From Vibrio echinoideorum (GTDB taxonomy: Bacteria; Pseudomonadota; Gammaproteobacteria; Enterobacterales; Vibrionaceae): a stretch of DNA of 64,000 nucleotides. Made by a program: the position numbers and the translations under genes. The notes beneath the pieces were generated by a model, which worked only from the letters and a program-made list of their open reading frames with translations, ran no database searches and was not told where the DNA came from. The stretch lies in assembly GCF_024347455.1 (NCBI RefSeq), contig NZ_AP025485.1, positions 1 through 64,000 of the forward strand, in the 5' to 3' direction. Positions 6,187-56,115 of the stretch are shown here, in pieces; position 1 is the first letter of the stretch; every line of letters starts with the position of its first letter.

Positions 6187-6933
6187 GTGGATCAGGTTGC
6201 AAACTATAGATATAAGACTTTAAATCGAATCGGCAATGGTGGCTTTGGTTACGTAGATAGAATCGAATTGTTCAATCTAAGTGAAACCCATTCGGGCTTT
6301 TATGCTAGAAAAGTACTAGACCCTAAAGTTGATCTGAAGATGTATAAAGAGCGCTTCATAAGGGAAGTGATTAGCCAAAGCAAGTGTCAGCATCACAATA
6401 TAGTCAGTATCTACATTTGTGATCTTTTCAACACAGAAACACCTTCCTTTATTATGGAACTTGCTGAATGCGATTTGCAGTCGCTTCTTTCTACAGACCT
6501 CTCAGAAGATGAAAAAATGAAGATCATTTCAATGGTTTGCGAAGGTGTAGCTCACATTCATAGGTTGGGCTACCTTCATCGTGATATCAAACCATGTAAC
6601 ATCTTGCGCTATGAAAACGGGGTTTATAAGATTTCGGATTTCGGTCTAGTCCGAAAGACTATCCCAAGTGGTGAGTCTGATGTACTAACCTCTTTGAATA
6701 TCAGACTAGGTACCGACAACTTTGTAGCTCCTGAGCTTATGTATATCGGTAGCGATTACACGGAAAAGTCGGACATTTTCGCCATAGGTAAAGTTTTCGA
6801 ACAATTACAAGTCAAAGACCCCGCACTAAAAAAAATCATAGCAACGTGTATAAAAATGGACCCTGAAAACCGCTACTCTTCTGTCGAAGAGCTCAAAACT
6901 GCATTAGAGTCTTTATCTAAGGTGGCTGCTTAA
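6187..6933 (+). CDS. Hanks-type serine/threonine protein kinase
   Basis: 248 aa from a GTG start with AGAGG 7 nt upstream. All core kinase motifs are present: glycine loop GNGGFGYV (about 17-24), catalytic Lys in YARKV (about 42), HRDIKPCN (about 131-138), DFG (about 152) and APE (about 181). It is a bare cytosolic kinase domain without a membrane helix or sensor domain. Its stop overlaps the start of a PP2C phosphatase (TAATG), so the two are a translation-coupled pair. The substrate is unknown. Such pairs occur in signalling and in phage-defence contexts (for example the Stk2 kinase); a toxic-kinase/antidote-phosphatase role is inference. Confidence 0.88.
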   Translation: MDQVANYRYKTLNRIGNGGFGYVDRIELFNLSETHSGFYARKVLDPKVDLKMYKERFIREVISQSKCQHHNIVSIYICDLFNTETPSFIMELAECDLQSLLSTDLSEDEKMKIISMVCEGVAHIHRLGYLHRDIKPCNILRYENGVYKISDFGLVRKTIPSGESDVLTSLNIRLGTDNFVAPELMYIGSDYTEKSDIFAIGKVFEQLQVKDPALKKIIATCIKMDPENRYSSVEELKTALESLSKVAA

Positions 6934-7694
6934 TGATTAAAATTATTGAAAGTTCATGCTTCACTTTTGGGAAGTCTGTAGAAAAAACTAACCAAGATGC
7001 AATGTTAGCCCCTAAAACAATAGCAGGTGGTGTGTTTTTCGCGGTAGCTGACGGTGTTGGTTCATATAAAGGAGCAGAGTTGGCTTCTTTATCAGCTGTA
7101 GAATACCTTAACCAAATCGAATCGGTTGGCCATATAACTGATTATACGACGGTGTTTAAGGATATACTCAATAAAATAAAAGAATTGTCTCAGTACGATT
7201 CTGCTTACGAACGTGCTTCTACTACATTAACTTATTACTTCGTTGAACCACGAGGGCTACATATCGGTCATATCGGAGACTGTAGAGCGTATGTTAAACA
7301 AGGTAAGAAATTAAAGCAGTTGACTAAAGACCATACTCAGCATCAAAAATTCCTTGATGAAAAACTCTTTACCAAGTCTCAACTTAAGAACGTAAAAGGT
7401 AAAAACATTATTACCACTGCTATCTCGCAAGTCGTTTCGATGGACCCGAGTAATTATTTTATTCCTATTGATGACCTCGAATTAGATAACGATACTTTGT
7501 CTCTTTACATAATGAGCGATGGTGCCCATTCATTTTGGGAGCAATCACCAAGGTTTTCAGAAAGAACAATGGATAGTGTTACAAAAATGTCAGCCAGCCT
7601 ACAGCGTAGAATAGAACGTAAAGGACCTGTTGATGATTATACTTTCGTTGCTTGCAAACTTCAGTATGATCGTCCTTTCGAGTCAATGTTTTAA
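6933..7694 (+). CDS. PP2C-family serine/threonine phosphatase
   Basis: 253 aa. Metal-binding motifs of the PPM/PP2C family are visible: NQDA near residue 21, ADGVG at about 38-42, GDCRAYV at about 117 and SDGAHS at about 195. No membrane segment is present. It overlaps the kinase stop by one base and so should be made in proportion to it. Known function of the family: Mg/Mn-dependent removal of phosphate from Ser/Thr, normally reversing the partner kinase. A strong terminator follows 29 nt later, defining a two-gene operon. Confidence 0.88.
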   Translation: MIKIIESSCFTFGKSVEKTNQDAMLAPKTIAGGVFFAVADGVGSYKGAELASLSAVEYLNQIESVGHITDYTTVFKDILNKIKELSQYDSAYERASTTLTYYFVEPRGLHIGHIGDCRAYVKQGKKLKQLTKDHTQHQKFLDEKLFTKSQLKNVKGKNIITTAISQVVSMDPSNYFIPIDDLELDNDTLSLYIMSDGAHSFWEQSPRFSERTMDSVTKMSASLQRRIERKGPVDDYTFVACKLQYDRPFESMF

Positions 7695-7761: not shown

Positions 7762-8221
7762 CTCCTTGATATGACCCAAAAGGAGGACTGGATACTTAAA
7801 CAAGGACTTTCATCGTTCCAGTCACAACCACCATATCAACAAGTATCAGATCATGTTAGCTGGCATCAATTAGCTTTGAACTTGCAATCAGGAAAACCAT
7901 ACTTTTCTCATCCTATTTTTTGATGTGGCTATCGCTCTAGCAAGTCCAAGCAAATGAGTTGAAGTCTTGAGCTCCAATTCAGACTGAATCCCTAATAGCG
8001 CAATCCCTCCGAGGGGCTGCGCCGAGTGGATGAATTGAAACTAATCTTTTTTGATGATATCCAAAAAAGACTACGATACCAGTGCTAACTTATTCAGTAA
8101 AAACAATGAGTAAAGATTCACCCTCTACCTTCTGTCTGGTATGCTCGAAAAATAGCCACAAACTATGAGAGGTTTCTATCTCCATAGCTCTTTTAATATA
8201 AAATATTAAATTGGTAAGAAA
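7762..8221. other. 460-bp non-coding stretch upstream of the OLD module
   Basis: A 50-codon frame at 7771-7923 has no ribosome site before its ATG and is not convincing. A GC-rich motif (GCAATCCCTCCGAGGGGCTGCGCCGAG) at about 8000-8028 echoes one at about 5900. The last 60 bp are AT-rich and probably hold the promoter for the next gene. Confidence 0.35.
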
Positions 8222-8731
8222 ATGCATAACGAGAAATCAATTACACTCGTTTCTGAGGTCATCGAGCGCAGCTTCACGAGCGATTTTCATTGTTTAATTG
8301 CATTGATTCAGCATCTCGGTGCTCATGAAAAGTGGAACAGTAGAACACCAAGAAATATCGCTGATAGTATTGGCTTGGATAAGGTAGATGTAGAGAATGT
8401 TCTTGACGGATATCCTGCATTTTTTAGAAAGTCCTCTAACCTAAGTGCTCAGAAAGAACCTTTGTACTCTCTGCATATCAGGTATGCGAGAAGAACTAAA
8501 AAACAAATTGAAGGAGAGGGAGGCCTCAAGGAATGGTCAGCACCATTATCCTCTGAAGAAATGCAGACACTCCTTAACCTAGTAACAAATATGATTGGTT
8601 TAGAGGCAGAGAATAGACGTCTTAAAGAAGACTCAAGGCACAACAATATGAAGGTTTGGGTTGCGCTGACTGGCGCTTTTGCAACGGCAATTGCGGCAAT
8701 TTTAGCGCAGATTGTCAGTAGTGGCTCTTAA
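8222..8731 (+). CDS. Unknown membrane-anchored protein encoded with an OLD nuclease
   Basis: 169 aa. The N-terminal about 85 residues look like a small winged-helix-type fold (PRNIADSIGLDKVDVENVL). A coiled-coil stretch (about 125-145, LEAENRRLKED) leads to one C-terminal transmembrane helix (about 148-165), so it is probably tail-anchored with its body in the cytoplasm. I do not recognise the family. It ends 11 nt before the OLD-family gene, whose ribosome site lies in the gap, so the two form an operon. A sensor or membrane-recruitment role for the nuclease is inference. Confidence 0.7.
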   Translation: MHNEKSITLVSEVIERSFTSDFHCLIALIQHLGAHEKWNSRTPRNIADSIGLDKVDVENVLDGYPAFFRKSSNLSAQKEPLYSLHIRYARRTKKQIEGEGGLKEWSAPLSSEEMQTLLNLVTNMIGLEAENRRLKEDSRHNNMKVWVALTGAFATAIAAILAQIVSSGS

Positions 8732-8742
8732 AAGGAATAGTT

Positions 8743-10725
8743 ATGAAACTCACAAAATTCCGAGTTAGAAATTTTCGTTCAATCAATGATAGCGGTGAGA
8801 TTACGACAGACAACTTAACTGCAATACTAGGTCGTAATGAAAGTGGCAAGTCTAATATATTACTCGCTCTTCAACACTTAAACCCTTCAGGCGGTATGAC
8901 AGAGATTGAAGCCATAAAGAACTTTCCTCGCCATCGCAGACTTGGAGAACAGGACGAAAATACACGGTTCCTTGATACTGAATGGACGTTGTCGCAACAG
9001 GAAAGAGAGTCCCTGTCTTCTATTTTTCCTAGAGCGTCTGAAGTTTCAACCGTCACGATTGCTCGTCCATATGGAAAAACAAAATACATAGGTTTGGTTG
9101 GCTTAAAAGACCAGAGCTTAGATGTAAAAGCAATAAATAGAATTATTGATAAGATCGTTACGCTCCTAGATGCTCTAAAAAACGAGGATAACGCTGAAAA
9201 TGTCAAAGCCGTAGTACAAGAGGTCGACATGTTGAAAGCAACTGAGGCTCTCTCTGTTGAGACCTGGTTGGAAGCAGTTTTAGGCCGATATGATCATACG
9301 CTTAGAGATGCTGCACAATACACGTTAGAGAGGCAAGACGACTACCTCGACCTTAAAGATGACTTCGCACAAATAGTGACAGCTTTAAATGATGGTGAAC
9401 AAGAGAAAAAAGCTTGTGAATTTATAGTGGAATGCCTCCCTATTTTTGTTTACATCGATGAATACCCACATTTGGATGGACATCAGAACCTCGGCACTCT
9501 TAGTCAGCATCGACAAAATAGCCAGCTGACTGCAGAAGACGAAGGTTTCATTAAATTGTGTAAAGTTGCGGATATAGATCCAATTAAGCTCCAAGAGTTA
9601 GCGTCAGATCCTGAGACACGAAACCAACTAGTTAACAGGGCAGGGGCTGTTGTTACCAGTGAGATTAGACGCTTATGGACAGACCGTGAGTTGAAAGTCC
9701 GTTTCAATTTGGATGGCAACTATTTCGATACGTATATATCCGATCCGACGTCTACTTATGATGTTGAAGTTAATCTGAACGAAAGGAGCCGAGGGTTTAG
9801 GTGGTTTTTTTCATTCTACATTACGTTTTTTGCAGATACACATGGCGGTGATGCAGAGAATGCTATCATTCTTTTGGATGAGCCTGGGCTATACCTACAT
9901 GCAAAATCCCAAAGTGATCTGTTAAAGCATCTTGATGAAGACTTTAGCAATCAGATTATTTATACAACGCACTCACCTTTCCTAGTCCCGACAAAACAAC
10001 TTTCCACAGTCAAGACTGTGAATATATGCCAAGAAAAAGGAACAACAGTTACTAACGACCCCACAGGTGATTCAACTACGCTATTCCCTTTGCAAGCGGC
10101 ACTCGGGTATGAAGTTTCTCAGTCGTTATTTATTGGCTCAAACAATTTGGTTGTCGAGGGGGTTACTGATTTTTGGTATCTGTCATCGATGTCTGAGTAC
10201 CTGAAATCGTTGGGTAGGACAGGTTTGATGGATAAGATAACTATAACTCCAGCTGGCGGAGCTCAAAAAATACCATACCTGGTAAGTTTATTGTCTTCTC
10301 AACATCTTAATTTATTGGTGTTGCTCGATCATGAAAAAGAAGCACTTGCCACTAAAAACGATCTGATAACTAATCACAAACTAACTAAAAGGAACGTCAT
10401 TTTAGTATCTGAAGCAACAGAGAACGACGTTGCTGAATTAGATATTGAAGACCTATTTGGTCCCGAGTACTTCCTTTCTCTGGCAGAAGAAGCCTATAGA
10501 GGCGAGGTAACCGATGACCTCACATACAACGATAAGATTCCAAGGGTCTGCAAACGATTCGAAAAAGCGATGAAAGATTCCGGTATCAAGAAACAATTTG
10601 TGAAAGCAAAGCCTGCGAGATTATTTATGAGTAAACTCTCAGAAGGTAAAGGTAGCAATCTTCCAGAAGAAGTAATTTATAGCTTTGAGTCACTATTCAA
10701 ACTTATCAATAAACGAATGAAATAG
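8743..10725 (+). CDS. OLD-family ATPase/TOPRIM endonuclease
   Basis: 660 aa. The N-terminal ABC/SMC-type ATPase has Walker A GRNESGKS (30-37), Walker B IILLDEPG (about 377-384) and a switch His in YTTHSPF (about 407). The C-terminal TOPRIM domain has the Glu of VVEGVTDFWYL (about 470) and the Asp of LLVLLDHEK (about 526). This is the class 1 OLD layout, in which a nuclease is activated in phage defence (P2 Old and relatives). There is no UvrD-like GajB partner, so it is not Gabija. Its upstream partner is a small membrane protein. AT-rich composition suggests transfer. Confidence 0.88.
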   Translation: MKLTKFRVRNFRSINDSGEITTDNLTAILGRNESGKSNILLALQHLNPSGGMTEIEAIKNFPRHRRLGEQDENTRFLDTEWTLSQQERESLSSIFPRASEVSTVTIARPYGKTKYIGLVGLKDQSLDVKAINRIIDKIVTLLDALKNEDNAENVKAVVQEVDMLKATEALSVETWLEAVLGRYDHTLRDAAQYTLERQDDYLDLKDDFAQIVTALNDGEQEKKACEFIVECLPIFVYIDEYPHLDGHQNLGTLSQHRQNSQLTAEDEGFIKLCKVADIDPIKLQELASDPETRNQLVNRAGAVVTSEIRRLWTDRELKVRFNLDGNYFDTYISDPTSTYDVEVNLNERSRGFRWFFSFYITFFADTHGGDAENAIILLDEPGLYLHAKSQSDLLKHLDEDFSNQIIYTTHSPFLVPTKQLSTVKTVNICQEKGTTVTNDPTGDSTTLFPLQAALGYEVSQSLFIGSNNLVVEGVTDFWYLSSMSEYLKSLGRTGLMDKITITPAGGAQKIPYLVSLLSSQHLNLLVLLDHEKEALATKNDLITNHKLTKRNVILVSEATENDVAELDIEDLFGPEYFLSLAEEAYRGEVTDDLTYNDKIPRVCKRFEKAMKDSGIKKQFVKAKPARLFMSKLSEGKGSNLPEEVIYSFESLFKLINKRMK

Positions 10726-10963
10726 TGAAGGATAGGGGAATTTAAGATTCAGTGGGATATCATTATTTAAATGAATTGACAATTATATGGGATATTTGCC
10801 ATACTGAGTGTGTAGAAGGGTTTGATATGTAATCTGCATCTGGCTTGATTACATATTTGTAAGCTACCTATGGCTAGCCAGAAAGTCATAGTAAGTTGTT
10901 AAGGTTAACCACCTGTCCCGACCCCATAGAGCTAAGGGAACGCCACGAACAACACCTATTAAG

Positions 10964-10993
10964 AAAAAGCCGACACGTAGTGTCGGCTTTTTT
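10964..10993. terminator. Rho-independent terminator between convergent genes
   Basis: AAAAAGCCGACAC / GTGTCGGCTTTTTT: 8-bp stem, 3-nt loop, A and T flanks on both sides. It serves the OLD gene and possibly the convergent toxin-like gene ending at 10998. Confidence 0.8.
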
Positions 10994-10997
10994 CGTT

Positions 10998-11480
10998 CTA
11001 TAACTCTAGATTCCCCATAACATTACCTGGATGAGCTTTCTTATCGTAGGCAGTAATGATGTTGTAAAAAGGCTCTTCGTTTTGAGGCTCTTTTAAATCG
11101 ACGACGACCATACCGGTATTTGATTCGACTATTAATGGCTTGTTGGGGCTCTTTTTAGGGTCAATTATCACCTCTGCCCCTACCTGAAGAACGCTTTCAA
11201 TAAACTTAACCACATCCTCTGCATTTTGAGAGTTTAGTTCATCCCCGTGCTTGTCCCAGATATGCCGTAGCCCAAAAGCTCCTTTAGGTTCGTGATGGTT
11301 ATGGCTATAGAAACCACTATCGCCTAGTTTGAGATGTATTTCCCCTTTTGGGAAATTATCATTCAACTTAGGAATAGTTCCAAAAGACAAATCACCATTA
11401 TTATTCGTAACCCTTGAGTTCTTCATGTTTTTCTTGTCAAGGACGTCATTGTCGATGTCTGTTGGATTGAAAATATTCAT
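10998..11480 (-). CDS. BECR-fold (PBECR-like) nuclease toxin domain, probably a detached C-terminal fragment
   Basis: 160 aa. The conserved-looking core has FGLRHIWDKHGDEL (about 71-84), PLIVESNTGMVVVDL (about 120-134) and FYNIITAYDKKAHPGN (about 138-153). This pattern is shared by barnase/EndoU/ColicinE5/RelE-type domains found at the C termini of phage head proteins and polymorphic toxins. The ATG at 11480 has no ribosome site and overlaps (ATGA) the stop of a short upstream frame with toxin-like sequence, so it may be an orphan toxin module cut from a larger protein. No immunity gene is recognisable. The family call is by motif only. Confidence 0.5.
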   Translation of the reverse strand: MNIFNPTDIDNDVLDKKNMKNSRVTNNNGDLSFGTIPKLNDNFPKGEIHLKLGDSGFYSHNHHEPKGAFGLRHIWDKHGDELNSQNAEDVVKFIESVLQVGAEVIIDPKKSPNKPLIVESNTGMVVVDLKEPQNEEPFYNIITAYDKKAHPGNVMGNLEL

Positions 11481-11593
11481 TTGGTCTTGGATGATGAAGA
11501 ATTATTCAGAATCATATCAACTATTTCAAACGTATGCCCCCATTTATTAGAAGTGTTATATCTACTTTTGACATTATTTGTTAAGGAGTTGCG
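11477..11593 (-). pseudogene. Short toxin-like coding remnant upstream of the BECR-type gene
   Basis: A 38-codon open frame without its own start contains SRYNTSNKWGHTFEIVDMIL, a sequence typical of the linker before C-terminal toxin domains. It ends in TGA overlapping the ATG of the next frame. It stops abruptly close to the dispersed element at 11617-11710, consistent with truncation of a larger toxin gene at a recombination junction. Confidence 0.35.
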
Positions 11594-11616
11594 TTATTGA
11601 CATTCACCATCAAAAC

Positions 11617-11710
11617 TGGACACCAACGTTAATCTTCTTCCCATACTTTTGGTTATTCATTGTTGCAATGATTAATTTTTGAGTCTCTACTTAATTTTAG
11701 TGACTGTCCA
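11617..11710 (-). repeat. Dispersed ~90-bp element, copy E
   Basis: Bounded by TGGACA and TGTCCA. Read on the minus strand it contains the dyad AATCATTG-CAA-CAATGAAT, then AATAACCAAAAGTATGGGAA, then a GGTGTCCAGTTTTG end. It shares the AAGTATGG block and ends with copies at 15274, 18559, 21073 and 52806. Confidence 0.65.
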
Positions 11711-11955
11711 TGACGGTGTACTTTTCGTCGATTCGGTATGTGCTTTGGTTGAATCAAAAAGATGTTAACTCTTGCTGTAAATCGCTCTGAAAGCGTCACA
11801 AACTTACAATGCCTTTTGGATACGTATTGGTGGTTAAGTGTCGTAAATCTTCGCTAAGAGCGTTTGAGACGCTATGAGGTCTGTTTCCGGTGGCTAACTC
11901 GCGGGTTTTACATAATAGGAATAATGAACACCGACTTTTGAGTGGTTTGGTTGCA
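11700..11955 (+). repeat. Long inverted repeat, left copy
   Basis: About 240 bp that match the reverse complement of 55578-55815 at high identity by eye (roughly 90 percent). Shared blocks include GGTGTACTTTTCGTCGATTC, AAATCGCTCTGAAAG and GCGGGTTTTACATAATAGGA. No protein is encoded on either strand. The two copies enclose about 44 kb. Confidence 0.8.
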
Positions 11956-12136
11956 TTTATCTATTGGCTGTAGGTTACAGCTTTATCATAAAAGATAGTA
12001 ATCATTAAAAAACAATGAGATACAGAAAGGTGATGAAATTAAAGTGATTAAAATCAATAGCATAGTTTCTATTATTGTTTAGGTTATCATTGCTTGCTAT
12101 GATTGGTTTTAAATACTTAAATTAAAAGGATCGTTC

Positions 12137-12280
12137 ATGAATATTCAAACTACACAACCAACAACTACAAAGCAGTTTAGCCCTGTGTTATCACGTTTAA
12201 TGGAAGAGGTTAAAAACAATAAGAATAACGTCAATGGCGCTTATGACCGAACTCACAATCGACACAATAGAGGTCAATAA
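12137..12280 (+). CDS. yhhA: YhhA-type triceptide (cyclophane) RiPP precursor peptide
   Basis: A 47-codon gene with an AAAAGGA ribosome site 6-8 nt before its ATG, ending 4 nt before the radical SAM gene. Residues 1-34 form a polar leader; the C-terminal core reads YDRTHNRHNRGQ. The core holds three aromatic-X-Arg triplets, YDR, HNR and HNR. This is the kind of site where three-residue cyclophane-forming radical SAM enzymes join the aromatic ring to the third residue, and the Y-H-H series fits the YhhA family name. Identification rests on the core pattern and on the adjacent maturase and oxygenase. Too short for routine gene callers. Confidence 0.82.
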   Translation: MNIQTTQPTTTKQFSPVLSRLMEEVKNNKNNVNGAYDRTHNRHNRGQ

Positions 12281-12284
12281 TTAA

Positions 12285-13421
12285 ATGCCAGCACGTTTAG
12301 ATACTGTACTGATAAAAACAGCTAGTCGCTGTAACTTGGATTGTACATATTGCTATGTGTATCAAGGTGAAGATACTAGCTGGAAAAATCAGCCTAAAAA
12401 AATGTCGAAAGATACAATTGACGTGCTGGTAGACAGGCTAATAGAACAGTCAATAAATCAAGATGTAGGCTTTGCTATTGTTTTACATGGTGGTGAGCCT
12501 TTACTCATTGGTTTTGAGAGAATGCAGTATCTGCTTACATCTTTAAGAAAAAATCTAAACTCGCTTAATTACCCAATAAGCCTTCAAACGAATGGTGTTC
12601 TTCTAACTAATCCATTTTTAGATTTATTTTCAGAAATGAAAGTGAGTGTATCTGTCAGTATTGATGGTGACAAGATTGCCAATGATATTTCCAGAATCAC
12701 AAGAACAGGAAAAAGTTCATTTGATGACACTGTTAAAGGGATAAAACTACTGAAGAGTCACCATGACAATGAGTTCTTGTTCGCTGGAACTTTATCTGTT
12801 ATTCAACCTAATATATCCCCGAAGGACATTTACCTATTTTTGAAAAGTTTAGGTACTCCAAGTATGGATTTTCTATTTCAAGACGGGAACTATAATAAAT
12901 TACCGATTGGAAAATATTCTTTTGAGTCCACTGAATATGGTCAATGGATGAAAGGAATGTTGGATATGTATCTATCCGACCCTGAACCAGTAAAAATACC
13001 ATGTATTGATGACATATTGAGGCTAACGATGGGTGGTGATTCCATAAAAGAAGGAAAAGGGGATAGTGAGTTTGGGATTCTCATTGTAGAGACCGATGGA
13101 GAGATCAGGAAGAATGATACTCTGAGACTCTCTTATGATGGTGCTGACTTTTTTAAGACCAGAGATAGCGTTAGAGACATTGACTTTCAAACCGTAATTG
13201 ATTCCGAAGAATTTCAATACGTTTCATCAATGCAAAAACCTACCTCAGATAACTGCTTGAATTGTTCAGTAAAAGATATTTGTGGTGGTGGAATGCCTCT
13301 TTACCGATGGAGTGATGAAAATGGTTATAACAATCCATCGGTTTTCTGTAATGACCATTACTACTTCATTGAAAGTGTAAAAAACACACTCAATACATCA
13401 GGGGGGAGTTATGTTTCCTAA
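12285..13421 (+). CDS. yhhB: YhhB-type radical SAM/SPASM peptide maturase (cyclophane-forming)
   Basis: 378 aa. The radical SAM cluster motif CNLDCTYC provides Cys16, Cys20 and Cys23. The GGEP motif (about 69-72) binds SAM. The C-terminal SPASM-like region has further Cys (CLNC at about 324, CGGG at about 335, and FCND near 352) for auxiliary Fe-S binding. Enzymes of this family cleave SAM to a 5'-deoxyadenosyl radical and cross-link aromatic residues to a nearby side chain of the precursor. It lies between the precursor and a 2OG-Fe(II) oxygenase, overlapping the latter by 11 nt. The symbol is assigned by context and recall, not by search. Confidence 0.85.
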   Translation: MPARLDTVLIKTASRCNLDCTYCYVYQGEDTSWKNQPKKMSKDTIDVLVDRLIEQSINQDVGFAIVLHGGEPLLIGFERMQYLLTSLRKNLNSLNYPISLQTNGVLLTNPFLDLFSEMKVSVSVSIDGDKIANDISRITRTGKSSFDDTVKGIKLLKSHHDNEFLFAGTLSVIQPNISPKDIYLFLKSLGTPSMDFLFQDGNYNKLPIGKYSFESTEYGQWMKGMLDMYLSDPEPVKIPCIDDILRLTMGGDSIKEGKGDSEFGILIVETDGEIRKNDTLRLSYDGADFFKTRDSVRDIDFQTVIDSEEFQYVSSMQKPTSDNCLNCSVKDICGGGMPLYRWSDENGYNNPSVFCNDHYYFIESVKNTLNTSGGSYVS

Positions 13422-14001
13422 GTTTAAAAACGTGAAGTTTTACGACACCCCCTACAAGCATTTTACTAGCTCCTCAAACCTTAACGAAAAAACCATACAA
13501 GAGTTACTTTCTTGGCTTGATCTAGAGGCTCCATGGAAGCTTGTCGAAACAGATTTTTATGAGCAATATGAGTTAAGCTTAAATTCGAGCGATAACTTAG
13601 GTGAAGCTAAGTTTCTTATTGATCAAGACACTCTGTCTCAATTGAGAGCTCAAGTCGAAAGTTTATTTAAAGTTAATATCGAAGAAAAAGTTGAAGTTGT
13701 AGCTCATAAACTAGTCAAAGGGCAAACCATTAGGGTTCATAATGATTACCTCCAAGAGGATCATCGAGAGACTCACCGAGTGCTTCTTCAAATAAGTAAG
13801 GAATTTAAAGAAAGCAATGGCGGGTACTTAATGACATTTAACGGGCCTAACTCTGATGACTTAAACTCGGTAATTCCTCCTATCCCAGGATCTATTCAAG
13901 GGTTTGAAATATCGCAAAACTCACACCATGCAGTAAGCACGGTTCATGGTGGAGTAAGATATACTATTATTTATACGTTTAAAGAAAGATCATCGTGTTA
14001 A
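13411..14001 (+). CDS. yhhC: YhhC-type 2-oxoglutarate/Fe(II) oxygenase acting on the cyclophane peptide
   Basis: 196 aa with a GGGGGGAG ribosome site inside the end of yhhB. The Fe(II) facial triad is visible: HND at about 110-112 (His and Asp) and a distal His in NSHHAVST (about 170-172). An Arg about 10 residues later (VRYTIIY) is suited to binding 2-oxoglutarate. This is a jelly-roll hydroxylase pattern. Together with yhhA and yhhB it should hydroxylate the cross-linked peptide. No transporter, protease or immunity gene follows; a strong terminator closes the operon. Confidence 0.83.
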   Translation: MFPKFKNVKFYDTPYKHFTSSSNLNEKTIQELLSWLDLEAPWKLVETDFYEQYELSLNSSDNLGEAKFLIDQDTLSQLRAQVESLFKVNIEEKVEVVAHKLVKGQTIRVHNDYLQEDHRETHRVLLQISKEFKESNGGYLMTFNGPNSDDLNSVIPPIPGSIQGFEISQNSHHAVSTVHGGVRYTIIYTFKERSSC

Positions 14002-14065
14002 TAATGAAGGATTTACCATAACGTCACTTAGTGCGCACCCAAACACAAACCAACCTTTTTGTTAG

Positions 14066-14105
14066 AGCCCCTTAATCATTGTTGCAATGATTAAGGGGCT
14101 TTTTT
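14066..14105 (+). terminator. Strong terminator of the RiPP operon; contains the CATTG-TTG-CAATG dyad
   Basis: AGCCCCTTAATCATTG / CAATGATTAAGGGGCT: 16-bp perfect stem, TTG loop, then T6. The dyad core is the same as the one at 11668 (copy E) and 55840-55860, so the terminator is built on a member of that repeat family. Confidence 0.9.
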
Positions 14106-14179
14106 AATCAATGTTCATTAAGGTGTAACTTTATGGACGTTGCTCACAATCATCTAATAACTGTTCAGTTAGTCTTTAT

Positions 14180-14235
14180 AATTTAAAGTGAACATGTACA
14201 CTTGTGTGTGAATATCTTTAAGTTCACTTTTAGGC
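14180..14235. promoter_or_regulatory. Candidate resolvase binding site (res) upstream of the recombinase gene
   Basis: AAAGTGAACATGTACACT and its partial inverse AAGTTCACTTTT lie within 50 bp just before the recombinase start. Spaced inverted arms next to the gene are typical of Tn3-type res sites, which also hold the promoter. Confidence 0.4.
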
Positions 14236-14241
14236 CATTTT

Positions 14242-14796
14242 ATGAAAATTGGTTATGCTCGTGTTAGCACCCAAGACCAAACGCTCGATGTTCAACTTGA
14301 ACAACTTAAACGTATTGGTTGTGACAAAATTTACCAAGAGCAAGCGAGCGGTAAATCCTCTGATAGAGAACAGCTTAACCTGTTGCTGGATTTTGCAAGG
14401 GAGGGAGATGTTATTCATGTTACCAAAGTCGACCGCATTGCTCGAAATACCATCGATGCTTTGCAAATTGCCGATCAGCTAGCGCAAAAGAAAGCGGGTT
14501 TGGTGTTTCATGACTTGGGGGATTTAGATATCAATAGCGATGTAGGTAGAGTCATTTATACGACCATATCGGCGTTTGCTGAAATGGAAAGAAAACGAAT
14601 ATTACAGCGTTGTAATGAAGGCAGAGAGCGTGCTCGCTCTGAGGGGAGGCATCTTGGCCGATTTCCTAATAAGACGCTTCATACGCGTATTCAAGAGCTT
14701 GCAGGCCAAGGAATGAACAAGCATGCGATCAGTAAAGAGTTAGAGTGCAGTAGGACTACGGTCTATAAGGTTCTAGGAAAAAATATCTCTCTTTAG
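14242..14796 (+). CDS. Serine recombinase, resolvase/invertase family
   Basis: 184 aa. The catalytic domain has YARVST with the nucleophilic serine at about residue 9, Arg-rich KVDRIARN (about 62-69), and the long E helix AEMERKRILQR (about 114-124). A C-terminal helix-turn-helix (NKHAISKELECSRTTVYKVL) completes the Tn3-resolvase/Hin layout at the usual length of 180-190 aa. The gene stands alone, with no transposase nearby. It may resolve plasmid multimers or rearrange the repeats that divide the cargo; the latter is inference. Confidence 0.9.
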   Translation: MKIGYARVSTQDQTLDVQLEQLKRIGCDKIYQEQASGKSSDREQLNLLLDFAREGDVIHVTKVDRIARNTIDALQIADQLAQKKAGLVFHDLGDLDINSDVGRVIYTTISAFAEMERKRILQRCNEGRERARSEGRHLGRFPNKTLHTRIQELAGQGMNKHAISKELECSRTTVYKVLGKNISL

Positions 14797-14980
14797 AATC
14801 GCGAACAAAGCTGTTCTTTAAATGAGTAAAGAGCTGACTGACGTTGCTTCGCTCTGTCGGCTTCATACTGACTCTACATGCAAGCATATAGCAGCCAGCA
14901 CGAACCTATCCCTTGATGAAATAAATAAATTTTCAGAATTTTAATTTAATTATTGTTGCAATGATTAAGAGGCAGAGAGA

Positions 14981-15250
14981 ATGAAAAGAGCAAGAATGAG
15001 CCAGGTTCAAAAAGAGGTCTTAAGATGTTTGGCCAAGGCGTTCATCAAAGGAGTAAAAGAAGGTAAGTCAACCGTCATCAACCTGGCCGTCAATCAAGTG
15101 CTTGGGAGAGATATTCACCCGAACAACTTCCGAGTTTCATGTAAAGCTCTTGAAGAGTGTGGACTGGTTATGCGCAAAAAAGTGGATCTAGATTGGTACA
15201 TCAATATAACGCCAGAGGGGTTTGATAAGGCACTCACCTGGCTTGATTAA
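14981..15250 (+). CDS. Small winged-helix-like protein of unknown function
   Basis: 89 aa with GAGG 8 nt before the ATG. It is predicted mostly helical with a terminal beta hairpin (DLDWYINITPEGFDKALTWL) like a wing, plus a basic N terminus (MKRARMSQVQKE), suggesting a small DNA-binding protein. A TTATTGTTGCAATGATTAAG dyad lies just upstream (about 14948) and may be its operator or a recombination scar. No family recognised. Confidence 0.5.
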   Translation: MKRARMSQVQKEVLRCLAKAFIKGVKEGKSTVINLAVNQVLGRDIHPNNFRVSCKALEECGLVMRKKVDLDWYINITPEGFDKALTWLD

Positions 15251-15273
15251 ACGATGCTTCTGAAACTCATTTT

Positions 15274-15364
15274 TGGACAAAAGCTACTTAGAGTAATCAC
15301 TTAAATTAGAAAATTCGGATAACTTTAAGTATGGGAAAGTCACTTAGCCGTTAGTTAGTGTCCA
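15274..15364 (+). repeat. Dispersed ~90-bp element, copy A
   Basis: TGGACAAAAG ... TTAAATTAGAAAATT ... GGATAACTTTAAGTATGGGA ... AGTGTCCAGTTTTGC. 91 bp between TGGACA and TGTCCA, located at the junction between the resolvase module and the DUF6338 module. Confidence 0.7.
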
Positions 15365-16498: not shown

Positions 16499-17449
16499 TC
16501 ATATTTCCTCAAACTCCAAACTATAGTAGTCACTATTTTTGGTAGTTTTCCATACATCTAGGTAACCCACGGAACTTGCATAACCGCCAAGCACGTCTTG
16601 TTTTTTCAGAGTTGATTTTAAGCCAATAAGACAGTTATTGATGCTACTTGCACATAGCCTCATTAGGAAAATAGTTGATGGTTTTTTGCTAAGCTTCACG
16701 AGAGCTATTGCTGCAGCAACACGCAAACTGTCATCATCAAACTTCCACAAGTCGATGGTGCACCTTTCTGTATCTTGGTCAATATTGACATGTGGGTTTT
16801 TGGCTAATGACTTGCGTATTGTTTCATTTTCAACATCTTGAAGCTTGTCGATAATAACCCTGTCTGCTTGTTCAAGGCGTAATACGACTCTGTGCTCTTG
16901 TTCATAGATCCACTCATCACTTTTTTGCATAAACACTTCGTACAGAATTCGATCGGCACCTTCCACACTAATATTGGAATAGTCATAATCGAACTTGTCA
17001 TGACGGTATCTTAGCCCCTTGCGGTAAGAAACGGGCTTGGCTATGCCATCAAAGGGAGAAAACTCTTCTGCCATTGAAGTATTGAGCAAGGCATCAGCTC
17101 TGAATAGCTTATGAAAGATAGATCTGTCATAGAATTGAGATACACCTGCTATTATTCCTTTATGCTCATTTGCATAATGCGCCCACATCAAAAGGTTTTC
17201 CTTGTTCTCCGAGAAGCTAATCACTCCAATATGATGCATTTTCTTCTGAACATAGTCTGAAAAACTTAACTCACCTAATTCTATGTCGTGAGCATTTTCT
17301 TCATCGAAGTGTGATGATAATTGCTCCAAGCTAGTCATGCAAAATGAAGCTTCAAAAGGGTCATTCAGCGCAACCATCTGCGACAATCGGATGAACCCTT
17401 CTTCAAAAAGATTTCTTGGTTCAGGTAAATATTTAAATAATTGCTTCAT
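16499..17449 (-). CDS. DUF2971-family protein (first of two)
   Basis: 316 aa. The start KYLPEPRNLFEEGFIRLSQM and the motif ALNDPFEASF, then FSENKENLLMWAHYANEHKG, are the typical DUF2971 signatures (xNDPxEx and LMWxHYAxxHxG). The family is found across bacteria in defence-rich islands; its biochemical activity is not known to me. A second DUF2971 gene in the same orientation lies 125 bp upstream. No membrane or signal sequence. Confidence 0.75.
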   Translation of the reverse strand: MKQLFKYLPEPRNLFEEGFIRLSQMVALNDPFEASFCMTSLEQLSSHFDEENAHDIELGELSFSDYVQKKMHHIGVISFSENKENLLMWAHYANEHKGIIAGVSQFYDRSIFHKLFRADALLNTSMAEEFSPFDGIAKPVSYRKGLRYRHDKFDYDYSNISVEGADRILYEVFMQKSDEWIYEQEHRVVLRLEQADRVIIDKLQDVENETIRKSLAKNPHVNIDQDTERCTIDLWKFDDDSLRVAAAIALVKLSKKPSTIFLMRLCASSINNCLIGLKSTLKKQDVLGGYASSVGYLDVWKTTKNSDYYSLEFEEI

Positions 17450-17574
17450 TCGAATTCCATTAAGAAACGTTTGTCAAGCTAGACTATTTTTGTTTAACTA
17501 TATGTATTTCATACTAAACGCTTTAGCTTAACTAGGTTAAAGCAAGTTACAAAGAGATGCTTCGGGCATTTATA

Positions 17575-18360
17575 CTAGCGATAATTGCCGTTGGAGTGCG
17601 CAATCTTTATCGTGTTGTAATCGCCGACACCATGCTTAAACAGCAAATATTTTACATCCTCGATACCCAGAGGGCATTTAGGCCCAAGTCTAATTGACTT
17701 TATGGAAGTTTGAGTTGTGGCACGACAACTGTGCTGGAAATGCAAGTACTTTGTAAGCCCATAAGGAGATACTCTCTCATGGACTGTCTTTTTGTATTGA
17801 TCTTGATATAAACAGCCCCTTTCAAACTTCAAAGGGTTTGGTAATTCTGCTACCAACCTGACTTCACTTTCCTCTTTATAAAAAAGGTCTTTATAAGCAT
17901 ACTGTTCAAACCTCACGAACAAATTTATTTCATCAGGGTTGTCATGAAAATTTTTGTCAGACAAAAATCGGTTGGCGTTTCCGAGAAAATCTTCGTCACC
18001 ATATTTAACATTAACGATTTGCGAAGTGAACGGAACTGTATCGATAGTTGGTGTGATAAACTGGTCTAGCATATCTAAATCAAACCCGATCGATACACCA
18101 GTCCCGTCATTTGCATAGGCTCGCCACTGGCTTAGAACATCATCCTCGAGAGAAAAAGATACTGAGAAGCAATCTAAATCAGGTGTTGAATTGCTGAGAC
18201 AAGTATCGTACTGCTTTTGTATGAGGTTTCTTAACCTATCTAGACCAAAAGCACCCTCATTAGGATCATTCATGTTCCGTAGATTAGCAGCCCAAATATT
18301 CGTACTTTCAAGAATGCTAATAAAAGTATCAATTGACGTGTAATGGTGACCAATTAGCAT
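17575..18360 (-). CDS. DUF2971-family protein (second of two)
   Basis: 261 aa from the ATG at 18360, behind GGAAGGGA; a longer frame begins at 18402. Motifs YTSIDTFISIL, NMNDPNEGAFG and VLSQWRAYANDGTGVSIGFD parallel those of the neighbouring DUF2971 gene, with QWRAYA replacing MWAHYA. Overall similarity between the two is low, so this is an old paralogue pair or a two-component unit rather than a recent duplication. Function unknown. Confidence 0.7.
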   Translation of the reverse strand: MLIGHHYTSIDTFISILESTNIWAANLRNMNDPNEGAFGLDRLRNLIQKQYDTCLSNSTPDLDCFSVSFSLEDDVLSQWRAYANDGTGVSIGFDLDMLDQFITPTIDTVPFTSQIVNVKYGDEDFLGNANRFLSDKNFHDNPDEINLFVRFEQYAYKDLFYKEESEVRLVAELPNPLKFERGCLYQDQYKKTVHERVSPYGLTKYLHFQHSCRATTQTSIKSIRLGPKCPLGIEDVKYLLFKHGVGDYNTIKIAHSNGNYR

Positions 18361-19116
18361 ATATTCCCTTCCTTGTATGCATCTGTAGGTACATTGCAGC
18401 ATGAGAAAAGTTAAGTCAAACCTAACGAAGACATTTGGCGGAGAGCGTCTGTTCTAAGTAACTTTGGGGCAAAGATGAGTCAACAGGTAAGGATTCCTTA
18501 TATGTTGCTAGCATGTTTCGGGGTAAATCTGAGTTAAGTCGCCCCGCCAGCAAGGATCTGGACAGAAATCATTTAGATCTTTTACTTAAATTAGTAAAAT
18601 ACGAATAACTTCAAGTATGGGAAATTACGTAACTCAGTGTCCAAAATTGCTGGAGCGGATCAGTCTCACGCTAGAAACAAAATCGTAGAGGCACCCTAGA
18701 GTTTATATTTACCCTCTAGGGCTTCTATCTTTATGAGATGAGCGTATTCACCCTAAAGCCCAATCTTGAAAATCGTGGAAACATTGCTAGCAAAGAAGCT
18801 CTACCAATGGCCCCTATCCCCCATAAGCCAACTCCAGTAACACTGAATGACTACAAGCCCATAAAAGAATTTCACCTCTAGTAGCGCCGTAAATGAGAAA
18901 GTACATAACCTATTCTTCTCTTGTATTTTTCTCATTCAATACTCCTATCTCCTCACGTCTACAGTCACGTTTTGCATTCAAATTTAAAATGAAACTAATT
19001 GCACATATACAAATAGAGCACTACCTTCTTTATAGTCAGAAAGATCAAATTCTGGCTAATTAATTAGTTTTATATATAAGAAATGTAACGACACCGTTGG
19101 ACTAGGAGAAAAACAC
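18361..19116. other. ~750-bp non-coding junction region
   Basis: It contains CTTTGGGGCA ... TGAGT ... ACAGGTAA at 18459-18493, a pattern echoed at 32541-32598. It also contains TTTCGGGGTAAATC ... GTCGCCCCG at about 18517-18546 and copy B of the dispersed element. A CCCTAGAG/CTCTAGGG dyad lies at about 18693-18721. AT-rich DNA before 19117 is the likely promoter of the next gene. Confidence 0.45.
18559..18643 (+). repeat. Dispersed ~90-bp element, copy B
   Basis: TGGACAGAAA ... TTTTACT-TAAAT-AGTAAAA dyad ... ACGAATAACTTCAAGTATGG ... AGTGTCCAAAATTGC, 85 bp. The dyad occupies the place of the AATCATTG/CAATGA dyad in copy E but has a different sequence, so pairing is kept while bases change. Confidence 0.7.
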
Positions 19117-35328: not shown

Positions 35329-35725
35329 ACCTGGGCGTTACCCTTTGGGCAAGGCTTTTCGCTTGTATCTTTTCATCTATGGCCTAAGAGTGGCATCACC
35401 CTGATGAGTCACTCCGTGCCGCCCCAGGGTGTGCCTCTCTACAGTCCCTATCTAAAAGGATATCGCTGCAATCCTGAACGCCAGCGCCTCGTCATTCTTC
35501 CTCGTTGCCGTTCGTCGTACCTTCTCACTCCTTTCACTGACATCCATTAAGTTCGAGTAAGGGCTTGTGTCTTATGTGCCAGTTTCCCTTTCGACTCGCA
35601 TCATTTGATGGGGCTCGCAGGCTGTTGACCCTCCTAAATCAGAACCTTCTCTGCAAGGGTAAATGAACGCTTCGCGCCCCTGCAGAGAAGAACCCTGTTT
35701 GAGGTAGGGACAGCCAAGCGGCTCC
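35329..35725 (+). promoter_or_regulatory. Frpo-like leading-region element L1
   Basis: A 5' block conserved with L2 and L3 (about 35329-35545; TGGGCGTTACCC, CTATGGCCTAAGAGTG, CTATCTAAAAGGATATCGC) is followed by a long multi-tier hairpin. Its inner stem CTTCTCTGCA / TGCAGAGAAG (35646-35690) has loop AAATGAACGCTTCGCG; the outer arms pair GGCTGTT with GACAGCC. It ends 35 bp before the gene at 35761. A stem that keeps pairing while its sequence differs among copies suggests a single-stranded promoter as in F Frpo. Confidence 0.65.
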
Positions 35726-35760
35726 ATAAAAGTGATACTCAAACAGAAAGGAAACTCCTC

Positions 35761-36192
35761 ATGGCACAACGACACTCAAGCCCAACTCTCTCTAAATCGA
35801 TGTTCAGCGACCAGCGTTTCGCCGCTGGGCACGAAAGCTCACCAAAAAATGATATCTCTAGTCCGATCGTTGAACGTGCAGTTCGTTCGACCGTTTCAGC
35901 GACGGTTTCAAAAGGACTTATCTGGGTGAATTCCACTGACTTTAATTCGAGCGTTCGAGCGGTCAAAGTGCATGAGATTTTACTTAAGGAGTTTGGTTAT
36001 ACCGACTCTTTGATCTTGGAGGAAAGCCAGAAAGGCAAAGGGGTGAGCATTAGCGTATGTGACCGAGTGACGACGGTAAAACAGATGCGAGAAGATTACG
36101 CCTACGCGAAAAAAGAAGAGAGAAACGTTGAAACGACCGCTAAGCATCAAGCAATAGCGAAAGACCTTCTAACTAGTTTGTATGGCCAATAA
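35761..36192 (+). CDS. Leading-region protein of unknown function (after L1)
   Basis: 143 aa with GAAAGGAAACTC before the ATG. The N-terminal about 35 residues (HESSPKNDIS at about 25-34) are shared with the protein at 40206; beyond that the two diverge completely. The C-terminal part is charged (KQMREDYAYAKKEERN). Not recognised. Its place as first leading-region gene suggests early expression in the recipient, where anti-defence or SOS-control proteins are usual; that is inference. Confidence 0.65.
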   Translation: MAQRHSSPTLSKSMFSDQRFAAGHESSPKNDISSPIVERAVRSTVSATVSKGLIWVNSTDFNSSVRAVKVHEILLKEFGYTDSLILEESQKGKGVSISVCDRVTTVKQMREDYAYAKKEERNVETTAKHQAIAKDLLTSLYGQ

Positions 36193-36243
36193 CACGGACT
36201 GAGCGCCGCCCATCACGACTTTAAATATTAAAAGGGATCTATT

Positions 36244-36729
36244 ATGTCTGTACTTGCTAACTACTCTAATCACAGCCTTTTCTCAGTCGAAGAAAAAGAT
36301 ATATTGAGCCATGCCGCGAGCATTTTAAAATCTAAGTTGTTTGTGTCAGAGCAGACGCCACTCAATTCCCCTGAATTGGTGAAGTCATTTTGTCAGACTT
36401 CACTCGCCTCCAATGAAAGCGAAGTGTTTGGGGTGATCTTTCTTGATAGTCAGCATCGGGTTTTACGCACAAAAGAGATGTTTAGCGGAACCATTGACGC
36501 CGCATCCGTTTACCCTCGTGAAGTGGTCAAAGAGTCACTGGCCACAAACGCAAGTGCAGTCATTTTTTATCATAATCATCCCAGCGGTGATGCCACACCC
36601 AGCCAAGCCGATCGACGTATTACTCGACGACTGACTGACGCGTTAGCCTTGGTTGATATTCGAGTACTCGATCACTTCGTGGTGTCTTTTGAAGATGTGG
36701 TGTCGTTTGCGGAGCGTGGTTGGATATAA
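36244..36729 (+). CDS. radC: RadC-like JAB/MPN+ protein
   Basis: 161 aa. The MPN+ metal site is complete: [14 protein letters not shown] (about 117-130; His-x-His and Asp), with an upstream Glu in [16 protein letters not shown]. It lacks the N-terminal HhH domain of chromosomal RadC, a short form common on plasmids and phages. The activity is not established (a deubiquitinase-like zinc protease fold). It lies 51 bp after the first leading-region gene. Confidence 0.85.
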
Positions 36730-36753
36730 CCATTAGTTAGTGAAAAATGTCTC

Positions 36754-36781
36754 TCATTCACGCCTATTCTGGCGTGAATGA
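36754..36781 (+). terminator. Hairpin after radC
   Basis: TCATTCACGCC / GGCGTGAATGA, 11-bp perfect stem with a 6-nt loop but no T run. Confidence 0.5.
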
Positions 36782-36832
36782 CTTCGGTAACGTAATGCAG
36801 TAAACTAAAGACAATTAAATAAGGTTTCTATT

Positions 36833-37084
36833 ATGTCTGAATCAAGCAAAGTCACATTAAGCGTTGAAGAGCTGATCAACCTAACCGCTCATGCTGCCAC
36901 TCAAGAGCAGTTAAATGATACGCGTAAAGAACTCGATCAGAAGATCGAAGCGGTTCGGAATGAGGTCCTGGGGGTTCGTAATGAAGTGAGTTCCCTTAAA
37001 AACCTCATTATTGCAACAGCCTTCGCGATGATTGCGACGGTAGCCGGTGCCGCGTTTTGGGTTGGTAGTCATATCAACGTTTAA
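36833..37084 (+). CDS. Small coiled-coil, tail-anchored membrane protein
   Basis: 83 aa. Coiled coil at about 20-55 (EQLNDTRKELDQKIEAVRNE, then VLGVRNEVSSLKN) followed by one C-terminal transmembrane helix (about 58-76). Resembles DUF1640/bdr-type proteins. It is in the leading region, followed by a strong terminator. Role unknown; a membrane-docked protein made early in the recipient is plausible. Confidence 0.6.
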   Translation: MSESSKVTLSVEELINLTAHAATQEQLNDTRKELDQKIEAVRNEVLGVRNEVSSLKNLIIATAFAMIATVAGAAFWVGSHINV

Positions 37085-37103
37085 TGTTCAAATATGTTTT
37101 CTG

Positions 37104-37134
37104 AAATGCCTCTTATCCTAGAGGCATTTTTTTT
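37104..37134 (+). terminator. Rho-independent terminator
   Basis: AAATGCCTCT / AGAGGCATTT stem, loop TATCCT, then T8. A related hairpin follows the next gene at 39515. Confidence 0.85.
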
Positions 37135-37149
37135 GTCCTCGTTATGTCC

Positions 37150-37770
37150 TTCGATCGCTTCAACGCTCGCGCTAAAAGACGTTGAGCCAAAGGCTCGACC
37201 GCAAGCGGTCGTCAAGCTGGCTCTCAGTAGGGCTGTAGGCCCATTGGCTCGGTGCTTGATTGTATTGCTGTGTATTGATGTCAATTTGTGGTTACGTGGC
37301 TGATAGGGCTTAATTGGCGAGTTTTTTATGATGATCGTTTAAAGCGGATTTGAAGCACAGCGTCGTGATAAGGGCTTAACTTGGGCGTTACCCCTACGGG
37401 GCAAGGCTTTTCGCTTGTATCTTTCATCTATGGCCTAAGAGTGGCATCACCCTGGTGAGTCACTGCGTGCCGCCCCAGAATGTGCCTATCTAAGTCCCTA
37501 TCTAAAAGGATATCGCTGCAATCCTGAACGCCTGCGCCTCGTCATTCTTCCTCGTTGCCGCTCGTCGTGCCTCCTCACTCCTTTCACTGACTGAACGAAA
37601 GAATCTGTAAGATGGATTTTGTTTTTCGCCTGTCTTTTTTCCTTTGATTTCTCATTACCGTGTCGCGGTCTTCCTGCTTAACGTCCCAAATCAGAACCCC
37701 CAAAACAAGGGTATATGAACGCTTCGCGCCCTTGTTTTGATGAACCGTGATTTTGGGTCGAGCAGTCAGG
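37150..37770 (+). promoter_or_regulatory. Frpo-like leading-region element L2 with upstream repeat
   Basis: 37150-37376 (CTAAAAGACGTTGAGCCAAA, CTGATAGGGCTTAATTG) is duplicated at 39577-39782. 37377-37600 is the block shared with L1 and L3. The hairpin at 37685-37757 has inner stem CAAAACAAGGG / CCCTTGTTTTG (37701-37739), outer stem CCCAAATCA / TGATTTTGGG, and conserved loop TATATGAACGCTTCGCG. It ends 39 bp before the DUF3560 gene. Confidence 0.65.
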
Positions 37771-37808
37771 CGACAACGGGAATGAAAAATTAATCAAAGG
37801 AAAAACTT

Positions 37809-39506: not shown

Positions 39507-39514
39507 AACCGAAT

Positions 39515-39545
39515 GAGATGCCTCTTAGTCTGGAGGCATCATTTT
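39515..39545 (+). terminator. Terminator after the DUF3560 gene
   Basis: GATGCCTC / GAGGCATC stem followed by ATTTTCCTTT; degenerate copy of the 37104 terminator. Confidence 0.65.
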
Positions 39546-39576
39546 CCTTTGTGATTTCCGTGAACGCTGTGATCGC

Positions 39577-40175: not shown

Positions 40176-40205
40176 AAGTGATACTCAAACAAAAGGAAAA
40201 TCCTC

Positions 40206-55532: not shown

Positions 55533-55577
55533 GTTGTATCACTTTTAGTGATGATTTTGCAACTAAATGATGTGCAA

Positions 55578-55815: not shown

Positions 55816-56115
55816 GGACGGTCATAAAGCAAACCAACTAAATCATTGCAACAATGATTTAGGGTTTAAGACCTACGGAGTAAGACCGAGATTGAATGAT
55901 ATTTGGACATAAATCGTTTAGAGCCGATGATCTAACTCTTGCGTTCCACATGCCCTGATATTGCGCAAAAACGATCAATCTTTATTGGAATCGACAACGA
56001 CGGTATCTTGCATTGGTTTTCTCCAAGCGTAATCAAGCAAGCTTGGCGCCTCTTCAGTCGCCTAACTTGGGTGCCAGTGGCGGGGGGAAGAATATCTTCG
56101 TTGTTATCACCCATG

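Follow-up and report, generated by a model that had tools for sequence, protein, structure and literature searches.

A minimal YhhABC triceptide operon on a Vibrio echinoideorum conjugative plasmid and its possible place in phage defence

The first 64,000 nucleotides of contig NZ_AP025485.1 from Vibrio echinoideorum (assembly GCF_024347455.1), referred to below as the window, carry a three-gene operon, yhhABC, at positions 12137 to 14001. The operon belongs to the YhhABC family of triceptides, which are ribosomally synthesised and post-translationally modified peptides (RiPPs), and was found to be a minimal form that lacks both the additional hydroxylase (here YhhD) and the Septu-type genes PtuA and PtuB (PtuAB) present beside many of its relatives. 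It lies on a conjugative plasmid, within a block that is exchanged for other cargo on a related plasmid. On balance we favour a reading in which the three genes make a peptide with three cyclophanes and added hydroxyl groups that is not exported and that would serve to defend the cell against phages, either by itself or in concert with ATPase-nuclease effectors. An earlier note on this DNA, made without database searches, had presented the locus as a hidden cluster; that description had to be given up, since the family has already been named, modelled and chemically studied.

The yhhABC operon and its core peptide

The features of the operon, all on the forward strand, are as follows.

12137 to 12280, forward: yhhA, an ATG-initiated open reading frame (ORF) for a precursor peptide of 47 residues; NCBIfam NF041705, 61.1 bits (cut-off 36)
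12182 to 12211, forward: conserved YhhA leader block PVLSRLMEEV; similar blocks occur in the precursors of relatives
12242 to 12271, forward: YhhA core YDR-T-HNR-HNR, three aromatic-X-Arg triplets (12242 to 12250, 12254 to 12262 and 12263 to 12271)
12285 to 13421, forward: yhhB, radical S-adenosylmethionine (SAM)/SPASM cyclophane-forming maturase of 378 residues; NF041707, 521.8 bits (cut-off 445)
12330 to 12353, forward: radical SAM cluster motif CNLDCTYC (C16, C20 and C23), its three cysteines invariant in 20 of 20 aligned YhhB sequences
13254 to 13349, forward: C-terminal SPASM cysteines C324, C327, C333 and C355, invariant in the same 20 of 20
13411 to 14001, forward: yhhC, 2-oxoglutarate-Fe(II) oxygenase of 196 residues; NF041706, 253.3 bits (cut-off 150)
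14067 to 14105, forward: terminator-like hairpin with a T-tract 3′ of yhhC, seen by eye and absent from the terminator scan list

Given NCBIfam scores above cut-off for all three genes, the match is not due to chance, and by its sequence the local operon is an ordinary, well-assigned member of the named family, as the earlier note had proposed. The gene layout described there was present in full: a 47-codon ORF with an AAGGA-type ribosome site directly upstream (by eye), 4 bases between the yhhA stop and the yhhB ATG at 12285, an 11-nt overlap of yhhB with yhhC, the motifs CNLDCTYC and HGGEP in YhhB, and an HxD...H arrangement in YhhC, whose metal ligands H110, D112 (as H110-N-D112) and H173 were, like R183, conserved in every one of 24 aligned YhhC sequences. 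When the hidden Markov model comparison suggested in the note was carried out, the Yhh models lay above cut-off and the window YhhB fell short of those for other triceptide maturases (FxsB 308.8 of 370, XyeB 176.5 of 450 and GrrM/OscB 119.7 of 310 bits), so that the assignment is specific. The best match of a YhhB alignment profile among solved structures was the radical SAM domain of ChlB (9gm3, E 4.8e-77). The leader block PVLSRLMEEV is likely to be the site at which the maturase recognises its precursor. The core YDRTHNRHNR stands immediately 5′ of yhhB, and the YhhA C-terminus reads YDRTHNRHNRGQ.

That enzymes of this type join an aromatic residue to the third residue of a triplet agrees with the accessible text of the review PMC11002830, according to which the characterised YhhB (WP_013448981.1, Sugiyama et al. 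2022) links Tyr C3 to Arg Cβ and His C2 to Arg Cβ. Because this enzyme makes both Tyr-Arg and His-Arg links, the rings predicted here for YDR, HNR and HNR follow published chemistry. On the biological side, that portion of the source describes the chemistry of YhhB and gives no role.

A discovery scan of one genome per species yielded 36 loci with YhhB homologues (loci carry L numbers below). The core was present in 23 of the 23 loci with at least 42% identity to the window YhhB over most of its length (L007 to L029) and in none of the 11 scoreable loci with no more than 33% identity; L006, whose YhhB is a fused protein of 35% identity, was an exception to this split. With the window, a Rhizobium plasmid and Escherichia coli, the 23 make up 26 core-bearing discovery loci, drawn from Pseudomonadota, Bacteroidota, Nitrospirota, Acidobacteriota and Actinomycetota. 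Two loci were kept outside the counts for want of a YhhB match in the profile scan (L041 and L042, the latter with a 30-residue match of 63% identity at the end of a contig). Searches of other genome samples added three loci above the NCBIfam cut-off, all with the core (L074, L075 and L082), and five below it (L059, L060 and L076 to L078), which had neither core nor PtuAB and enter neither count. The resulting 29 core-bearing loci span five phyla; since they were chosen by their core, a figure of 29 of 29 would be circular, and it is the 23 of 23 and 3 of 3 that bear out the conserved precursor beside homologous maturases on which the earlier note had staked its reading.

Precursors were tabulated for every one of the 29 loci except L082, which gave 34 sequences from 28 loci, six of them second copies. 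Core position 1 was Tyr and position 8 His in all 34, while position 5 was His in 20, Tyr in 12 and Phe in 2; Arg occupied positions 3, 7 and 10 in 34 of 34, as the scan pattern, which presupposes Arg and aromatic residues, itself required. A listing of small ORFs before yhhB, made without that pattern, returned the same cores except in L022, where the precursor follows yhhB. That position 5 varies among aromatic residues, with an unchanging Arg two residues further on, fits the aromatic ring and the Arg as the joined residues, although it is not proof. A word-based protein search found the core in 103 of 103 sequences, one with YDW in place of YDR; because that set is biased, the figures given here rest on loci found through YhhB. 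A second precursor, with the core YNRTYHRHNR, was located between yhhB and yhhC in six loci (L017 to L020, L028 and L074), and the sole precursor found in L022 occupies the same place. Matches to yhhA-yhhB occurred in 45 of 5426 complete E. coli genomes; three of the 45 were inspected and enter the counts as a single locus.

Neighbouring genes in related loci

In many relatives yhhC is followed by an ORF of approximately 250 to 350 residues, and five of five such ORFs tested passed the cut-off of TIGR04267 (aKG-HExxH-type peptide beta-hydroxylase, aKG standing for alpha-ketoglutarate), which is also the RefSeq annotation of the ORF after yhhC in E. coli. We propose the name YhhD for this TIGR04267-type gene. 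By profile it was found in 20 of the 26 discovery loci; it lies on the far side of PtuAB in L013 and is fused to YhhB in L006 (frame at 7992 to 10142). Loci L075 and L082 resemble L006 in having YhhB and YhhD matches within single open frames, of 705 and 718 residues, no yhhC, and the core YDRMHHRHNRS. From their gene content, these three loci, with a fused frame and neither yhhC nor PtuAB, are set apart as a separate sub-type. No YhhD was found by profile at the locus in the Colwellia sister L007 or in Marinospirillum L011, and a search of the complete V. echinoideorum genome for TIGR04267 gave nothing at E 0.001. In the three E. coli genomes opened, yhhABC and the HExxH gene share one genomic island. 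At a distance of several kb in each case, that island also holds an annotated HNH endonuclease (L062) or, in a different strain, RloB together with an AAA ATPase (L064).

Clustering of neighbouring genes (within up to 10 kb, not every neighbour being annotated individually) showed that, besides yhh, two families, an AAA ATPase and its companion, were common to 12 and 13 of 25 loci. The pair from L009 matched the PADLOC models of Septu, PtuA with PDLC00304 (E 1.3e-133) and PtuB with PDLC00339 (E 4.3e-86). Against the NCBIfam models of retron Ec78, three PtuAB pairs reached approximately 130 to 136 of 500 and 52 to 56 of 150 bits; as these values are far below the cut-offs, the tested pairs are Septu-like by PADLOC only. 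No family other than yhh and Ptu was common to more than three of the 25 loci, and thus no exporter or protease recurs. The remark in the earlier note that none was visible and that the product might act inside the cell is strengthened by this result.

PtuAB adjoined the operon, or stood one gene off, in 14 of the 29 core-bearing loci (13 of 26 discovery loci and, among the three later ones, L074) and in none of the 11 distant, coreless YhhB homologues by profile, six of which have a flank shorter than 3 kb. With the comparison restricted to loci that have 3 kb on either side of yhhB, the counts were 11 of 20 and 0 of 5. Three arrangements were seen, on differing sides and orientations. The pair lies upstream on the same strand in L009 and divergent 5′ of yhhA in L010 and L025. 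In the rest it faces the operon from downstream: it is convergent after yhhD in L015 to L020, L022, L028 and L074, with one gene between in L017, and PtuB faces yhhC in L012 and L013, being the only one of the pair visible in L012, at a contig end. From the listed ORF ends, the convergent pair lies no more than 50 bp from yhhD in seven loci (L015, L016, L018, L019, L020, L022 and L028) and overlaps yhhD in five of them. Loci with PtuAB were distributed among Bacteroidota, Nitrospirota, Acidobacteriota and Pseudomonadota. The YhhB proteins of L017 and L018 are 77% identical and their PtuA proteins 37%, which means that distinct PtuAB lineages stand beside near kin of one operon.

Whole-genome searches at E 1e-50 found the yhh-locus copy as the sole PtuA in two PtuA-bearing yhh genomes and no PtuA in ten yhh genomes whose locus lacks PtuAB. 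For E. coli, no PtuAB was annotated in the three genomes opened and none was found by profile in the one scanned. Other defence genes stood beside some of the loci lacking PtuAB, namely Shedu with an AAA_15 fragment (L023), an AAA_15 ATPase (L008), and a type I methyltransferase with restriction-like genes (L007).

Plasmid setting and the exchanged block

The contig measures 72,315 bp; there is no overlap between its ends, so that circular closure is not demonstrated. Its conjugative character, as claimed in the earlier note, was upheld by a TraI/MobF relaxase, F-type TraD, TraF and TrbB above their cut-offs; TraG and TraH were also matched, with scores below theirs. Comparison by blastn of the window with plasmid p.J383 of Vibrio sp. 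J383, itself typed as conjugative, MOBF and MPF_F, delimited the block in which the operon resides. The relevant features of the plasmid are these.

11945 to 14111, no strand assigned: exchangeable block of 2.17 kb containing yhhABC
14242 to 14796, forward: serine resolvase gene at the border of the exchange block, outside the RiPP operon; Pfam Resolvase, E 5e-36
8222 to 10725, forward: two-gene module of a 169-residue protein and an OLD-type AAA/TOPRIM ATPase (660 residues, 8743 to 10725); PADLOC Old, E 6.5e-24

The flanks of the block are 98.3% (10726 to 11944) and 97.6% (14112 to 15295) identical to p.J383, which in place of 11945 to 14111 carries a nuclease-related gene and a RelE/Phd pair; a 58-bp piece at 14070 to 14126 is also common to p.J383, at 89.7%. 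The G+C content of the block is 35.5%, versus 45.0% for the contig. We read yhhABC, on these comparisons, as a probable recent cargo unit of an F-type conjugative plasmid. At the left edge of the block, a stretch of 254 bp (11696 to 11947) recurs as an inverted repeat, 91% identical, at 55576 to 55828; the plasmid may therefore have a second exchange site, at 55.6 kb.

YhhB was rare around the window, its own genome being the only one found among 196 congeneric genomes (E 1e-100) and the only one over cut-off among 369 in a wider sample of the class. No YhhB relative was found among 50,697 phage records at E 1e-30 or among 16 pattern matches in viral_contigs, and a single plasmid record, from Rhizobium, contained YhhB at E 1e-60, with 35% identity.

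Besides the OLD-type ATPase, other cargo of the plasmid comprises a kinase like those of mad6 and PD-T4-6, a protein similar to methyl-directed restriction enzymes, and two DUF2971 proteins. The module at 8222 to 10725 is probably independent of yhhABC and looks like a separate defence module; a similar pair of a 169-residue protein and OLD occurs on Enterobacter plasmids, with approximately 70% DNA identity in two pieces. At 6187 to 7694 the protein-kinase-like gene, which resembles the mad6 and PD-T4-6 models, is followed immediately by a 253-residue protein with no PADLOC match, a possible defence pair. The two DUF2971 proteins are adjacent (16499 to 18402), and the one tested resembles PADLOC candidate PDC-S31. 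Elsewhere, long tandem-like repeats were observed at 53444 to 54793 inside a 632-residue ORF with no NCBIfam match, whose neighbour is OmpA-like (below cut-off), and direct repeats of approximately 215 to 540 bp, 85 to 93% identical, surround a 565-residue ORF with no NCBIfam match at 35329 to 40305.

Possible role, alternatives and relation to known systems

In the reading we favour, YhhB would bind the leader of YhhA and use radical chemistry to join Tyr36 to Arg38, His40 to Arg42 and His43 to Arg45, in each case an aromatic ring carbon to the Arg beta-carbon, so as to give three adjacent three-residue cyclophanes. YhhC would then add hydroxyl groups to residues within the rings or close to them. 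The product, a rigid, Arg-rich and positively charged peptide, is predicted to stay inside the cell and to meet a target that is the same in very different bacteria. A role in phage defence is proposed for it, exerted either by the peptide itself or jointly with ATPase-nuclease effectors; among these, PtuA-PtuB is the partner most often seen in relatives. In favour of this reading are the frequent adjacency of PtuAB in differing arrangements and lineages, the correlation of PtuA with YhhB distances, the yhh-locus PtuA as the sole copy in the two genomes searched, and other defence genes near some copies that lack PtuAB. The analysis itself shows gene identity, conservation, genetic linkage and an exchanged block. 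As the peptide tail is the same with or without PtuAB, a universal intracellular target appears preferable to PtuAB itself. A more elaborate version, which we regard as doubtful, would make YhhABC(D) peptides a chemical arm of immunity in bacteria, in which a tri-cyclophane peptide directed at one universal target, perhaps an RNA or translation component, arms, guards or cooperates with PtuAB-like effectors as an msDNA-like (multicopy single-stranded DNA-like) part, and plasmids spread the peptide half alone.

Several observations weigh against a defence role, among them the low retron scores of the PtuAB pairs and the short flanks of the contrast loci given above. PtuAB was not seen in 15 of the 29 yhh loci, including E. 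coli and the Colwellia locus L007; nine of the 15 have at least 3 kb on both sides, and its absence is uncertain in six with less than 3 kb on a side (L008, L023, L024, L026, L027 and L029). Positions 1 to 26000 of the window gave no PtuA or PtuB profile match, and the genome contained only weak ATPase matches to PtuA, the best (E 4.5e-10) being the OLD gene. On the YhhB tree the PtuAB label was weakly clustered (70 of 500 shuffles were as low), and the correlation of PtuA with YhhB distances (Mantel r 0.77, p 1e-4, 12 loci), although it points towards a link, is inflated by three near-identical sphingomonad loci. This PtuA subfamily was found in 2 of 398 genomes at E 1e-80, and at neither of those two loci was yhh present within approximately 9 kb; PtuAB therefore does not need yhh, and an obligate linkage of the two was rejected. 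Given the many yhh loci without PtuAB, the weak tree clustering and the PtuA genes without yhh, PtuAB is a frequent partner and not a defining part. Finally, the linkage could stem from shared residence in defence islands.

This last point leads to the alternative that yhhABC is a stand-alone operon with an unrelated role, for example in metal or redox chemistry, and that PtuAB, Shedu and the like simply travel with it in islands and on plasmids. We consider this improbable, though it deserves to be taken seriously: half of the yhh loci do without PtuAB, PtuA genes of this subfamily are found apart from yhh, and the copies in the window and in E. coli sit in mixed cargo. Set against it, most loci that have PtuAB carry it immediately next to the operon, in four phyla and with overlapping 3′ ends in five cases, and a PtuA this rare is nevertheless found beside about half of the yhh operons. 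In one particular form of the defence reading, the peptide, once modified, could take the place that msDNA has in retron Ec78/Eco7, binding PtuA and, during infection, either holding the ATPase-nuclease off or switching it on. The adjacency of yhh and PtuAB agrees with such an antitoxin or trigger, as does the report, in the available part of PMC11555353, that the msDNA genes and reverse transcriptase of retron Eco7 neutralise PtuAB toxicity. It seems unlikely all the same, as the identical core in loci without PtuAB argues for another target and PtuAB of the same subfamily is also found without yhh.

Some radical SAM cyclophane peptides are secreted antibiotics, darobactin for example, and with this precedent and a TonB-receptor-like gene near L008 the product could be an exported antimicrobial or signal that uses a transporter and protease of the host cell, host export being an option the earlier note had allowed. 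Given the lack of any recurring exporter or protease family in the flanks surveyed (up to 10 kb), and a near-invariant core unlike those of diversifying bacteriocins, this is quite improbable. Least probable of all, in our judgement, is that the peptide partners the OLD-type ATPase of this plasmid (8743 to 10725) in parallel to the PtuAB pairing. The OLD gene is on the same strand 1.4 kb upstream of yhhABC, its protein is a weak relative of PtuA, and AAA_15 ATPase sequences lie near yhh in L008 and L023; it stands, however, outside the exchanged block, set apart by a segment common to p.J383, and the similar pairs on Enterobacter plasmids are found with no YhhB match at E 1e-60. The OLD gene was also considered as the effector of the window under the defence reading and was set aside on the same two grounds.

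Among the matches listed in a literature search that was thin on subscription journals, the accessible text of none dealt with Yhh in phage defence or with a Yhh-Septu pairing. What the family survey adds is the conserved core, the second hydroxylase and the repeated Septu pairing. The earlier note had mentioned neither the defence association nor the cassette exchange, and was likewise silent on how little the core varies and on the aKG-HExxH hydroxylase that relatives have in addition. A core that hardly varies, the lack of a recurring exporter and the pairing with Septu provide this orphan natural-product family with a concrete and testable idea of a phage-defence function. If that idea holds, a further RiPP class would join the lanthipeptides in intracellular immunity, and radical SAM peptide chemistry would be tied to nuclease defence.

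Compared with the YhhABC triceptides already described, the window operon follows the same Tyr/His-X-Arg logic, with the gene order annotated in E. coli; it differs in being part of a conjugative-plasmid cassette and in having no aKG-HExxH hydroxylase, a gene present in 20 of 26 discovery loci. ChlB (9gm3) is a fusion of radical SAM and aKG-HExxH parts, and L006, L075 and L082 likewise have YhhB and HExxH in one open frame, whereas the window YhhB is unfused and its genome has no match to the HExxH hydroxylase. Septu and retron Ec78 (Eco7) share PtuA and PtuB with the surroundings of relatives' operons but not with the window. According to the portions available of PMC11555353 and PMC13096335, two PtuAB systems deplete or cleave tRNA-Tyr, and the former source describes another PtuAB that targets nicked DNA. 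A parallel in terms of setting is provided by the anti-phage lanthipeptides, for which the accessible part of the review PMC12360287 describes RiPP operons near defence genes, intracellular action and reported protection. Both these and yhh are RiPP operons near defence genes; the enzymes and chemistry differ. The lanthipeptides beside defence islands offer a precedent for a RiPP in immunity.

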